This document shows, one piece after another, positions 16,198 through 20,385 of a DNA stretch of 64,000 bases. Position numbers and translations under genes: made by a program. The DNA comes from Stenotrophomonas maltophilia (GTDB lineage: Bacteria; Pseudomonadota; Gammaproteobacteria; Xanthomonadales; Xanthomonadaceae): positions 13,761 to 77,760 of the forward strand of contig DGIP01000338.1 of assembly GCA_002386405.1 (NCBI GenBank). The letters are read 5' to 3'. How positions within the stretch are numbered: the stretch's first letter is position 1; each line of letters begins with the position of its first letter. Under the pieces are notes generated by a model that was not told where the DNA came from, searched no databases, and was given only the letters and a program-made list of their open reading frames with translations.

Positions 16198-18402
16198 TCA
16201 AACCCCCGCGCCCGCCGCCAGCGCCTGCAGTTCGCGCTGCAGCAGCGCCTGCACTTCCTCGCGCTGGAACTGGGTAACGAACACCGGCACCGCAAACACG
16301 TACGGCAACCCATCGGCCTCGCGGCGAACGACATACGCCAGCTGCAACCGCGCCAGCGCGTGGCGGACCTGCTCCGGATCGACCCGCGCACCCGCCTGAT
16401 CGAATGCAGCCAGCAGTTCCACCAGGGTGATGCCACGCTCGCCGCTCCCGACCAGCTGCGCACCTGCTACCTGGTACACCACGATCCGGTCGATGCGGCA
16501 CGCCAGGGGATCGGGACTCAGCCGCGCCCACCCGGCCAGTGCATCGAACATCGGCTCGCTGACCAGCGCCGCATGTACCTGCGTGGCATCCAGCACGCGC
16601 AGGCCCCGGTCCAGCTGGCCCAGCAGCTGCTGGCAGGCAATGGCGACCAGGTTGGCGCGGCGACCGCACGCCGCCACCAGCCGCTGTGGCAGGTCCGGGC
16701 TGGCGAAGTGCACGCCCAGGCGCGCCATCGGTTCGGTGGCCAGCGCCAGGCAGGCGTCCTGTTCCAGCCCGCCGATATGGATCACTTCGCCGAAGTTGCG
16801 CAGCGGTGAGGCGAAATCCAGGGTAACCGCTTCATACAGGTCCCAGAACCCGGCCAGCATGAAGTGGCAACGCCCCTCTTCGCTCAGCGCGCGCAGTGCC
16901 GCCAGTTGCGGGTAGCCATGTGCCGCTTCAGCGCGCAGGAACAGATCGGTCTCGTCGATCAGCAGCAGCAGGCCACGCCCCTGCGCGCGCGAAGACAGCT
17001 CGGCGACCAGCGCATCGATCCCGGTGTCCTCGGCCAGGCCCAGTTCCAGCGCCAACCGCATCGTCAGCCGATGGTCGCGCAGCGACAGGTACACGCAGTG
17101 CACGCGCGGGTGGCCGACAAAGCGCCGCTCGATCGCCTTCATCAGGCTGGTCTTGCCCAGCTGCCGACCGCCCACCAGCAGGTAGTTGCCGGGCTCGCGG
17201 TTGAGCACCCGCGCCAGCAGCGACTCGCGCCCAAAGAAGGCCGCCGGGCGGGTGATGCCGCCATGGGTCTGGTAGGGCGAGATGCGGGTTACCCGGAGCT
17301 GCCGGGCCAGCAGCCCTGCCAGCGCATCGAGCGCGCCAGGCTGCAGCAGCCAGCGGGTCTGTGCGGCCTGGCCAAGGCATACGCACAGGTTGGCCGGATC
17401 GTCGGCGTACGCCGCCAGTTCGGCTTCGACCGCCAGCGAGGGGCTCACCACCAGCACCACGTCCTGGCCATTGGGCATGGCGCGCAACTGCTGCACGATG
17501 GCATCGGCCGCCAGCGCCGGATCGGGCTGGTACAGCCACAACCGCTCCAACGCCAGCGGCAGCTTGTCCGGCAGGTTCCATTCGCGGACCAGGCCGGTCA
17601 GCGCCCAGCCCGGTGCCGGCGCGTCGATCGCACCGATGCGCGCGGCCAGCTGAAGTGCGCGTGTCAATGGCGTGGCCTGCAGGTGCCGCAGCGCGTCGCG
17701 CCAGCGCACCGTGGCAATCCCGGCACCGGCCAGGACGCGATCCTTGAGCCGCAACCATCCCAGCTGGCGGTCGATGACGGGCAGCGCCTGCAGCGGCTGG
17801 GCAAGCAGCCGCTGTGGCTCGCGCACGATGTCGGCCACCGCCGGTCGCACCCAGTACCAGAGCATGCCAAGCCCGGCCAGGCCCAGTACGGACAACCCCA
17901 GCACCACCGACAGCCACTGCACGATGCCCCACGGCGCCTGCGCGTGGCAGTTGGCCGGCAACCAGCGCGACGGTGGCGCAGGATCGCCGGGGCGGCAACG
18001 CCAGTACTGGGTGCGCGGCTCCAGCGTCTGCTCGATGGCCGCACCGCGCAGCCCGCTGTTGGCCGGGAAGCGGTCGGTGAAGCGCAGGCGCAGCACGAAC
18101 GGCTGCGGCAGTTCGGCAACGACCAGGGTTTCTTCGCGGTCGTGCACGCCGGGCACGTGCACCTGCTGCGGCCAGCGTTCGTGCTGCAGCCAATACGACA
18201 ATGCTTCTTCGCGCAGGAACATCATGTCGATGTTGGCCTGCTGCATGAGCATCATGCTTTCGCGGTCGCGCTGCATGCGCAGCAGCTGCACGGGGTTGAG
18301 CCACGGCACGAACAGGTAGCTGCCCACGAACCAGGTCAGGCCGGCCACCAGCAGCAGCCACCACCAGCGCAGTACCGGCTGCCCGCGCGGTGGCCTGCTC
18401 AT
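16198..18402 (-). CDS. Membrane AAA ATPase with pilin-like periplasmic domain
   Basis: A 734-residue protein. A short cytoplasmic start is followed by a membrane helix (about 11-34), a periplasmic region (35-158), a second helix (161-185), a helical linker, and a cytoplasmic AAA NTPase with Walker A GGRQLGKTS (411-419) and Walker B LLLLIDETD (478-486), then a winged-helix-like C-terminus. The periplasmic part looks like a type IV pilin head: an amphipathic helix running on from the membrane helix, an E-RWP step, then LRG...LEP...YWRC...WLPANC, the W-x-C and LP-x-x-C disulfide end of pilins. ATG 18402 overlaps the stop of the HTH gene. The nearest NTPase family is AAA_35/STAND-like. Function is unknown; a surface-signal-sensing ATPase is my inference. 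Confidence 0.75.
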   Translation of the reverse strand: MSRPPRGQPVLRWWWLLLVAGLTWFVGSYLFVPWLNPVQLLRMQRDRESMMLMQQANIDMMFLREEALSYWLQHERWPQQVHVPGVHDREETLVVAELPQPFVLRLRFTDRFPANSGLRGAAIEQTLEPRTQYWRCRPGDPAPPSRWLPANCHAQAPWGIVQWLSVVLGLSVLGLAGLGMLWYWVRPAVADIVREPQRLLAQPLQALPVIDRQLGWLRLKDRVLAGAGIATVRWRDALRHLQATPLTRALQLAARIGAIDAPAPGWALTGLVREWNLPDKLPLALERLWLYQPDPALAADAIVQQLRAMPNGQDVVLVVSPSLAVEAELAAYADDPANLCVCLGQAAQTRWLLQPGALDALAGLLARQLRVTRISPYQTHGGITRPAAFFGRESLLARVLNREPGNYLLVGGRQLGKTSLMKAIERRFVGHPRVHCVYLSLRDHRLTMRLALELGLAEDTGIDALVAELSSRAQGRGLLLLIDETDLFLRAEAAHGYPQLAALRALSEEGRCHFMLAGFWDLYEAVTLDFASPLRNFGEVIHIGGLEQDACLALATEPMARLGVHFASPDLPQRLVAACGRRANLVAIACQQLLGQLDRGLRVLDATQVHAALVSEPMFDALAGWARLSPDPLACRIDRIVVYQVAGAQLVGSGERGITLVELLAAFDQAGARVDPEQVRHALARLQLAYVVRREADGLPYVFAVPVFVTQFQREEVQALLQRELQALAAGAGV

Positions 18403-19610
18403 GCGGTCTGCACCTGCATGCCGTCGATGACCTGTCGCACGGCGCGGCGGATCGCCTCGCAGCGCCATTCCAGGCATTGCCCCTGCGGGTGCGGTCGCGC
18501 GGCCAGCAGGTTGTTCCAGTACAGGTGGCGCAGCAGCGGATCGGCCAGGTAGGGCCGCGCCGGTGCCACCACCTGGTGCGCCAGCCATCCCTGCACCGCG
18601 ATACGCGCAGCGTCATCGCGCAACAGCGGTACCAGTGCCTCCCACAGGCGTGGATGGCTGGACAGCGTATCGGTGACCGCCTCGTCGTCGAGAGCGGTGT
18701 CAACGAGCAACGTCAGCGCGGCCTGCGCCAACAACGGGTGCCCGCCGGACAACCGCAGCGCGCGCGCAAGCGTGTCATCGCCAATGCCGGGGGCACTGCG
18801 CCGCAGGTCCTCGATTCCCAGCTCCGGCCAGCTCTCGCTGGCGGCAATGTTGAGCAGCGAAAGATCGCCGCCCTGGTACTTCAGGTCGGCCAACGCGGCC
18901 CCGCCACAGATCAGCAGGTGAAGCTTGCCGCTGTACATCTCGCTGAGGCTGCGCAGGATCCCGGCCAGCACATCGCGCGGCCCTGATTCCCCCTGCTCGA
19001 ACCGGCTGACCAGGCAGAACAGCGCACCGGGCTGCTGCAGCCGGCGCGCCAGCGCCATTTCGAAACTGGCGTCCGAGCCAACGCCCTCCAGCCCGCACTG
19101 GGCGGCCAGCAAGGCAAAGTAGTCCTGGTCGCCCTCGCCCGACCGGAACGGCGGCTGCAGATGCAGCACGCGCTCCTGCCCATAGCGTGCCGCTGCCTCA
19201 GCAAGGATCGCGGCGCGCTCGGGCGGCTGCCCCCAATGGGCCTGGGTCAACAGCAGGCTCACCGGGTACGGGCGCAGCGACTGCAGGCGGTCGAACAGCC
19301 GGGTGACGGTGGGCGGCACTGAAACCCTAGGGGGGTCCTGCTCGTCCCGTGCCGACACCGGCTCCACCGGGAACTCCGGCTCGAACCCCACCGACTGCAG
19401 CAATGCATTGCATTCGGTTTCGGTCAGGCGCAGGTAGTTGGCGCAGGCCAGGACCCGGTCGCGATGTCGGCGACTGGGCCGCGAGGTACCGGCGCGCCAG
19501 TTGTTGACCGCCTCGCGGCTGATGCCGATCTCGGCGGCCACCCCGCCGGCACTGGCCCGGATCCGCCGCATGTGTCGAGACAGCAGGTCCGCGAACTCAG
19601 GGGCAGGCAT
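18399..19610 (-). CDS. XRE-type HTH protein with degenerate NTPase domain
   Basis: A 403-residue cytoplasmic protein. Residues 1-60 form a lambda-repressor-like helix-turn-helix (AAEIGISREAVNNWRAGTSRPS). After a Pro-rich linker comes an AAA/STAND-like domain (about 105-330) with the GGHPLLAQAAL motif but no Walker A lysine: the expected P-loop position reads LTQAHWGQPPERAA. It is co-transcribed and overlaps by four bases with the active membrane ATPase downstream. The promoter at 19642-19669 rules out the longer reading of this frame, so ATG 19610 is used. Probably a DNA-binding partner or regulator of the ATPase. Confidence 0.75.
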   Translation of the reverse strand: MPAPEFADLLSRHMRRIRASAGGVAAEIGISREAVNNWRAGTSRPSRRHRDRVLACANYLRLTETECNALLQSVGFEPEFPVEPVSARDEQDPPRVSVPPTVTRLFDRLQSLRPYPVSLLLTQAHWGQPPERAAILAEAAARYGQERVLHLQPPFRSGEGDQDYFALLAAQCGLEGVGSDASFEMALARRLQQPGALFCLVSRFEQGESGPRDVLAGILRSLSEMYSGKLHLLICGGAALADLKYQGGDLSLLNIAASESWPELGIEDLRRSAPGIGDDTLARALRLSGGHPLLAQAALTLLVDTALDDEAVTDTLSSHPRLWEALVPLLRDDAARIAVQGWLAHQVVAPARPYLADPLLRHLYWNNLLAARPHPQGQCLEWRCEAIRRAVRQVIDGMQVQTA

Positions 19611-19676: not shown

Positions 19677-20201
19677 TCAGGCCGCAGGAACCGCAGCGCC
19701 CTGCCGCACGAACAGCTTGCGGGTCACCAGCAGGTGCACTACGAAGGCCAGGATCGCCAGCATGCCCAGCGCCACGATCACCCGGCCCAGCACCGACCCC
19801 AGCCCCTTCTGGCCTTCAAGGCGATCAAGCCGATCAAACTGCGCGGGGTTGCTGCGTGCGTAAGCCACGTCGACCTGCGGCGCTTCGCCCAGGTACGGCG
19901 TTGCGTTGTCTTCGGAGGTGGAAAAGTGGCCGGTATATTCAACGCCATCGACGCTGAAGTCGTAGCGGAAGTGGTACTGGTAGGACACCCGCCCCTTGCG
20001 GCGTTTTTCCTCGATGTGGTCGACCTGTACCGGTGCCTGCACGGTCACCGCATCCTTGAGGATGGCTTCGGCCTGGCGATGCCCGCTCAGGGCCGACCAG
20101 GCAAAGAACACCGCAAGCGCGGCGTAGCCGATGCAGCACAGCCAGCGGGACACGCGGGACAGGCGGGCGTGGGAGGTGTCTGAAACTGGAATGCTGATCA
20201 T
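19677..20201 (-). CDS. DUF3592-type membrane protein
   Basis: A 174-residue protein with a helix near the start (about 18-38, WLCCIGYAALAVFFAWSAL), a soluble beta-rich middle with the DUF3592-like pattern VSYQYHFRYDFSVDGVEYTGHF and VAYARSNPAQ, and a C-terminal helix (about 140-160). The chosen start is ATG 20201; ATG 20234 (MTQTTT) is an alternative. It lies directly upstream of the HTH-ATPase operon on the same strand, but that operon has its own promoter. Function unknown. Confidence 0.7.
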   Translation of the reverse strand: MISIPVSDTSHARLSRVSRWLCCIGYAALAVFFAWSALSGHRQAEAILKDAVTVQAPVQVDHIEEKRRKGRVSYQYHFRYDFSVDGVEYTGHFSTSEDNATPYLGEAPQVDVAYARSNPAQFDRLDRLEGQKGLGSVLGRVIVALGMLAILAFVVHLLVTRKLFVRQGAAVPAA

Positions 20202-20385
20202 CTGGTTTTCCCCGTAAGTGGTCGTTTGCGTCATCAGCCAGGTCGCCGTGACTTCGGGATCCAGTGTGGGTGGCTGCGCCTCGTTGCTGAACGGGCAGCC
20301 TGTCAAGTCGGGGCCTGCGGCACCTGACAATCCGTCAACCGGGCGTTCCGGGGCGCATCCAGGAACGCCATACTGCAATGCGTCA

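Follow-up and report, generated by a model that had tools for sequence, protein, structure and literature searches.

ToxR-like and other transmembrane transcription regulators couple a periplasmic sensor to DNA. ExeA/GspA and MshM are AAA_22-type ATPases, and ExeA/GspA is anchored in the inner membrane, carries a periplasmic peptidoglycan-binding domain, and has ExeB as its partner. Type IV pilins (PF00114; PAK and K122-4 PilA, gonococcal PilE) possess a prepilin cleavage motif that includes Glu5. The established role of pilins is that of filament subunits, but in the two-gene system described here a pilin fold seems to be used as the fixed periplasmic sensor of a signaling ATPase, P0001, which is encoded next to a putative DNA-binding protein, P0002. 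The system was analyzed in a stretch of 64,000 nt from Stenotrophomonas maltophilia (GCA_002386405.1, contig DGIP01000338.1, positions 13,761–77,760 of the forward strand), which is called the window. The parts of the system are of known kinds, and to our knowledge their combination has not been known.

The P0001 gene encodes, in this order, a transmembrane (TM) helix, a pilin-type head, a second TM helix, and an AAA/STAND-like ATPase (Table 1). Hydropathy exceeded 1.6 at residues 14–35 and 157–185, and the structural model contained helices at residues 9–31 and 160–185. Basic residues outnumbered acidic residues in the short N-terminus (3 to 0) and in the stretch after the second span (5 to 3), which fits a topology with the N-terminus inside, the head outside, and the ATPase inside. 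A preliminary description of the gene had already placed a pilin-like domain between two membrane helices with an intact Walker A/B ATPase behind it, and this order was confirmed by the open reading frame (ORF), hydropathy, and the model helices. Walker A (GGRQLGKTS) and Walker B (LLLIDE) are indeed complete. Conservation was quantified with 120 sequences, i.e., the window P0001 and 119 of 120 listed homologues from 173 matches; several of them are near-duplicates, and the fragment P0055, which is devoid of the head region, was removed. The ATPase residues G411, G412, R413, Q414, L415, G416, K417, D483, and E484 were unchanged in all 120. The AAA_22 score of the window P0001 was 26.7 versus a cut-off of 27; homologues P0089 and P0113 were above this cut-off, and P0105 was above that of nSTAND1. 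A scan against NCBIfam yielded nothing useful. Among the matches listed, the closest named relatives were from Stenotrophomonas. Sequence, homology, and a fold model support the view that P0001 is an inner-membrane STAND/AAA-type signaling ATPase, the predicted periplasmic sensor of which is an uncleaved pilin head between two TM helices. It differs from STAND signaling NTPases such as MalT, CED-4, and the NLRs in being membrane-anchored and in having an extracytoplasmic sensor of pilin type.

The pilin-like nature of the head had been proposed from a set of motifs, all of which are present in P0001: FLREEALSYWLQ, WP (77–78), LRG, LEP, YWRC (W134, C136), and WLPANC (C152). W77, P78, W134, C136, and C152 were unchanged in 120 of 120 full-length sequences, so that the set of motifs goes beyond chance. 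The LP of LP-x-x-C was frequent, not invariant, across the aligned homologues, and outside the W, WP, and Cys positions the head was less conserved than the ATPase. Both Cys residues were also present in all five very distant g43 N-termini and in L038, which has them in the forms W-T-C and LP-E-I-C and lacks the WP step. Alignment A3 was not used for conservation, since its rows were chosen by motif pattern, which in itself makes the W, WP, and Cys columns invariant; the pattern missed L038 and took a false reverse-strand row (L018), which was removed.

The relationship to true pilins was analyzed at several levels. PF00114 (Pilin) was above the gathering cut-off for four of five homologues scanned (P0089, P0098, P0100, and P0105) and for the distant L044, and the cut-off was not reached by the window P0001, P0113, L039, and L040. 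In hhalign, the head profile matched 22 pilins with a Prob of 96.8, and the controls reached at most 0.8; these 22 were the PF00114 loci with a prepilin motif among 32, and the other 10 were excluded. The head was modeled with a pLDDT of 90 as a pilin alpha-beta roll, and pilins alone filled the first 26 VIA rows of its structural matches, so that both the predicted fold and the conservation of the Cys pair bore out the earlier proposal. A single-sequence search of the Protein Data Bank (PDB) with P0001 found nothing. Profile searches of the PDB sequences matched pilins in six of six cases with the head profile (E 0.29–0.68) and in two of two cases with the whole P0001 (E 0.31–0.54), which is supporting, not decisive. 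The alignments of full-length pilins started with pilin residue 1 at model residues 11–16 of P0001, and TM helix 1 itself thus stands in for the pilin alpha-1N helix.

The class III prepilin signal with Glu5 that characterizes type IV pilins was absent from the window P0001. A loose prepilin pattern occurred within the first 45 residues of 2 of the 120 sequences, and by reading neither of the two has a normal alpha-1N after it. In addition, the head of P0001 is followed, unlike that of type IV pilins, by another TM helix and by about 550 cytoplasmic residues. Judged from the sequence, P0001 is not a pilus subunit, because it has no prepilin signal and has a second TM helix and an ATPase behind the head; given the latter two, its incorporation into a filament is unlikely. 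According to the available part of a survey of modular pilins, among them Streptococcus sanguinis PilB and PilC, the proteins selected combine an IPR012902 motif at the N-terminus with an additional domain that the filament presents (PMC8179133). As far as they are described there, modular pilins and P0001 are alike in the fusion of a pilin module to another functional module, but P0001 is without the N-terminal IPR012902 signal in a motif test, and its extra module is predicted to be cytoplasmic. The preliminary description had known of no protein with the architecture of P0001, and in the literature searched no description of one was found among the matches listed; the word "pilin" occurs 0 times in PMC7159879 and in PMC8195603. 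One database calls homologue P0089 "Pilin (bacterial filament)", and the precomputed domains of P0105 are PF00114 and PF13401.

In all 21 loci examined, the P0002 gene lies immediately upstream of the ATPase gene, with an overlap of 4 bp in the window, and of 41 genomes the same 7 contain both genes. P0002 is regarded as a soluble protein, and in its model an XRE-type helix-turn-helix (HTH) fold and an NB-ARC/STAND fold were both recognized. P0002 has no P-loop, i.e., no GxxxxGK[ST], and its strand-1 loop reads AHWGQPP, which distinguishes it from the STAND signaling NTPases mentioned above. The fixed gene pair and the model support the conclusion that P0001 and P0002 work as a pair, and the two proteins may form a physical complex. 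A link of sensor and DNA is shared with ToxR-like regulators, but here the sensor/ATPase and DNA binding would be distributed over two proteins.

Alignment of the upstream regions first exposed a palindrome, TTGAC-N5-GTCAA, of which 0.02 exact copies would be expected in the window according to shuffles. A survey of 20 loci of at least 13 kb (290,021 bases; two WD40-type loci, described below, were excluded) revealed 14 exact and 10 one-mismatch sites. All 20 loci had a palindrome at the operon, which was exact in 13 and had one mismatch in 7 cases. The four remaining sites lie just downstream of the ATPase gene (L061), inside that gene (L060), and elsewhere (two sites). Among 21 carrier genomes, 10 had an exact and 7 a one-mismatch palindrome at the locus. 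For G002, G186, G278, G255, G309, and G459 the exact palindrome at the locus was the only exact one in the genome, and exact palindromes were found in 7 of 15 genomes without the system. A genome-wide regulon was considered and rejected, as exact palindromes were about as frequent as, or rarer than, a reversed control pattern in most of 36 genomes. Because the counts were generally not above this control, the palindrome looks like a local switch.

Usually, the gene that follows the palindrome encodes a small membrane protein, and three dissimilar families of these proteins occur. These are a DUF3592-like family with two spans (window, L008–L016), a family of about 240 aa with mostly three spans (L017–L021, L060, L061), and a family of about 270 aa with two spans (L058, L059). 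BLAST yielded at least 34% identity within families and a best E of 0.004 between families; 4 of the 10 loci of the DUF3592 set were used, and the rest were assigned by clustering and reading. A relative of the DUF3592-like protein of the window, encoded in L055, reached 27.3 bits with PF12158, and no Pfam model matched for one member each of the ~240-aa and ~270-aa families. In L054, L055, and L095 the DUF3592 gene (34–38% identity to that of the window) is downstream of the ATPase gene with the palindrome between them, and in L034 and L035 the palindrome lies shortly before the P0002 gene.

In 9 of 10 DUF3592-type loci, the palindrome is followed by 16–17 bp, TTGAC[AG], 9 bp, a TTC-type hexamer, 17 bp, and a −10-like hexamer. 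Reading the half-site and the −35-like and −10-like elements as a promoter is our interpretation. The weak −35 downstream of the palindrome faintly suggests activation rather than repression. Sites of 15 bp are usual for XRE dimers.

Two genomes of one genus encode the same ATPase core behind WD40 repeats and a TM-like stretch (L050 and L051). The L050 protein, read as L052:5103-7910, scored 161.9 bits with Pfam WD40 and 44.5 bits with AAA_22, and no P0002 was found in the two WD40-type loci. The presence of WD40 in place of the pilin head suggests a ligand-binding role for that position. Together with the adjoining gene of a DNA-binding partner and the conserved palindrome, it lends support to the role of sensing and inward signaling that had been suggested from P0001 alone. 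In L052, the gene upstream of and overlapping the WD40 relative had CHAT and TPR matches above and a NACHT match below the cut-offs. A guanylate cyclase-PilZ gene and SiaC and SpoIIE genes are also near the WD40-TM-AAA gene (L052:5103-13909).

The architecture, the pilin fold (by model and homology), the fixed gene pair, and the conserved palindrome are well supported. We think that the pilin-headed ATPase, P0002, and the palindrome probably constitute a modular envelope-to-DNA switch that controls a small membrane-protein gene. An envelope change read by the pilin head would alter the nucleotide state of the P0001 ATPase, the altered state would change binding of P0002 to TTGAC-N5-GTCAA and make switching nucleotide-dependent, and P0002 would thereby switch the neighboring small membrane-protein gene, which is DUF3592-like in the window. 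As to the input, one may speculate about the state of pilins or pili, which is plausible since packing of the head against pilins in the membrane is conceivable; the sensing of PilA in the inner membrane by PilS is a precedent. If the switch exists, it would offer a two-gene path from envelope to transcription that can be tested directly, and it would bear on how pilin levels or pilus contact are read.

Several results weigh against this view. Foldseek by itself gave no PDB match for the head at E <0.001. No pilus gene was recognized in the operon, and PF00114-domain genes were found in 39 of 41 relatives with or without the system, some of the matches being fusions and not pilus subunits, so that co-occurrence with pilins says little. 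The window itself contains no exact palindrome, nor do G117, G224, G132, and G087, for which one-mismatch sites were not sought over the full upstream regions; in L056 the palindrome is located where the ATPase gene ends, and no DUF3592 gene is contained in the stretch seen. P0002 is the presumed binder of the palindrome on the basis of linkage and its HTH fold. The P0002 model also matched the AAA+ proteins ORC/Cdc6 and MuB, and thus "STAND" fits best among several related assignments. Sequence homology between the ATPase region of P0001 and P0002 is not claimed, as hhalign gave a Prob of 8.9 and an E of 0.0037, and the best shuffle a Prob of 2.7 and an E of 0.017.

A bolder version is conceivable, but we regard it as rather doubtful. 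It states that the system represents a new class of transmembrane signaling, in which a pilin-headed STAND ATPase among inner-membrane pilins would read pilin supply or pilus state via contacts of its head and helix and would pass the signal on to a pseudo-STAND XRE protein, which in turn switches a single membrane-protein gene via TTGAC-N5-GTCAA. Input and output would then be plug-in modules, since this ATPase core is elsewhere joined to WD40 and since unrelated small membrane proteins are preceded by the same palindrome and partner.

It is improbable that P0001, similar to ExeA/GspA, helps to assemble a type IV pilus or a type II secretion-like machine, with the ATPase remodeling the envelope and the pilin head docking on the machine. 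ExeA/GspA proteins are likewise membrane ATPases and broadly of AAA_22 type, with an inner-membrane anchor and a periplasmic domain. However, they have a peptidoglycan-binding domain and ExeB as partner, whereas P0001 has a pilin head and an XRE-STAND DNA-binding protein as partner, and no Pfam match to a peptidoglycan-binding domain was found in the window P0001. The role of ExeA and ExeB is treated in the available part of PMC4098917. The genome content could fit an assembly factor, as PF00114 genes were found in 19 of 19 carriers searched and PilB was above the TIGR02538 cut-off in 22 of 26 carriers; at E 0.001 all 26 carriers matched, but so did 13 of 14 control genomes. Yet the system is sporadic (7 of 41 relatives), very much in contrast to the PF00114 genes. 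In the 530-contig assembly of G144, which encodes the pilin-type protein (L041), no PilB exceeded the cut-off, and the two PF00114 matches lie in non-pilin fusions. The DNA-binding neighbor, the conserved palindrome, the lack of recognizable pilus genes beside the ATPase gene, and the replacement of the head by WD40 in two far relatives also argue against an assembly role.

There is even less reason to expect that the pilin head is merely a structural or oligomerization element and that the signal comes from elsewhere, e.g., from the small membrane protein, which might hold the complex or signal to it on its own. The lower conservation of the head outside W, WP, and Cys would agree with this explanation, but the two-Cys motif is kept across deep divergence, and WD40 in the head's place points to a ligand-binding role. 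Very unlikely, finally, is a STAND-type immune sensor with the pilin head as a decoy for pilus-attacking phages or phage proteins and the outputs as effectors: the STAND-like folds, the patchy distribution, the CHAT, NACHT-like, and TPR matches next to the WD40 relative of L052, and the service of type IV pili as phage receptors in Stenotrophomonas (according to the available part of PMC6024842) would fit, but PADLOC gave no good match for P0001 (best E 0.088) and no match for P0002, no effector domain was recognized in the operon, and a pilus-binding phage would hardly meet a head that is predicted to be periplasmic.

Table 1. Features of the operon; positions refer to the window
Feature	Position	Strand	Basis or remark
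P0001, pilin-headed membrane STAND/AAA ATPase, 734 aa from ATG	16198..18402	(-)	ORF, homologues, alignment
P0001 TM helix 1 (residues 13-31), pilin alpha-1N counterpart	18310..18366	(-)	hydropathy; model helix; alignment with full-length pilins
P0001 predicted periplasmic pilin-type head (residues 45-155)	17938..18270	(-)	PF00114 in homologues; hhalign; model and PDB matches
P0001 Cys136 to Cys152, W-x-C ... LP-x-x-C loop	17947..17997	(-)	both Cys in 120/120
P0001 TM helix 2 (residues 160-186)	17845..17925	(-)	model; hydropathy
P0001 AAA_22/nSTAND1-like ATPase core (residues 403-518)	16849..17196	(-)	Pfam matches, alignment
P0001 Walker A	17146-17172	(-)	within ATPase core
P0001 Walker B	16951-16968	(-)	within ATPase core
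P0002, XRE-type HTH and P-loop-less STAND/AAA-like fold, 403 aa from likely start	18399..19610	(-)	open frame extends to 19673
P0002 HTH domain (residues 1-76)	19383..19610	(-)	
Promoter-like TTGACA-N16-TAGGGT ahead of P0002	19642..19669	(-)	TTGAC[AT]-N16-TAnnnT in 15/15 loci
Small membrane protein, DUF3592-like, 174 aa, two hydrophobic spans; first gene of the operon	19677..20201	(-)	PF12158 22.9 bits (cut-off 25.3)
Half-site TTGACA (20301-20306), weak -35-like TTCAGC (20286-20291), -10-like CACACT (20263-20268)	20263..20306	(-)	
Palindrome TTGACGGATTGTCAG, candidate operator	20324..20338	(-)	one mismatch to TTGAC-N5-GTCAA

Pilin heads were also encountered in other fusions. The genome of the window encodes a protein with GYF_2 (59.1 bits), a Pro-rich stretch, a TM-like helix, and a pilin head (61.0 bits) (L023:1020-1808; G000:C160). 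No FTLIE-type prepilin motif was seen in this frame, and the same build was present in seven related loci examined, which had been picked by frame length. Eleven open frames of 715–821 residues (L091–L094, L096–L102) have a lipobox-like N-terminus and, at the C-terminus, a complete alpha-1 and a pilin head; that of L100 reached 39.3 bits with PF00114. A third type, consisting of a TM segment, a coiled-coil-like stretch, and a pilin domain, is encoded at L054:2673-3449 (49.4 bits) and L095:5271-6017, in both cases no more than about 3 kb away from the gene of the pilin-headed ATPase. Judging from these three types of uncleaved fusion, pilin heads may serve more generally as an envelope module in this order.

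A few further observations concern the ATPase gene and its surroundings. A second short stretch akin to the P0001 C-terminus (54% identity), perhaps a duplication remnant, is located at L014:10170-10397. In G174, a copy of the ATPase gene is in two pieces on different contigs (L043 and L044), and one match has an internal stop. In the window, an APH-family kinase gene (PF01636; 15059-16108) follows downstream on the same strand, an arrangement that is common to only some Stenotrophomonas loci.
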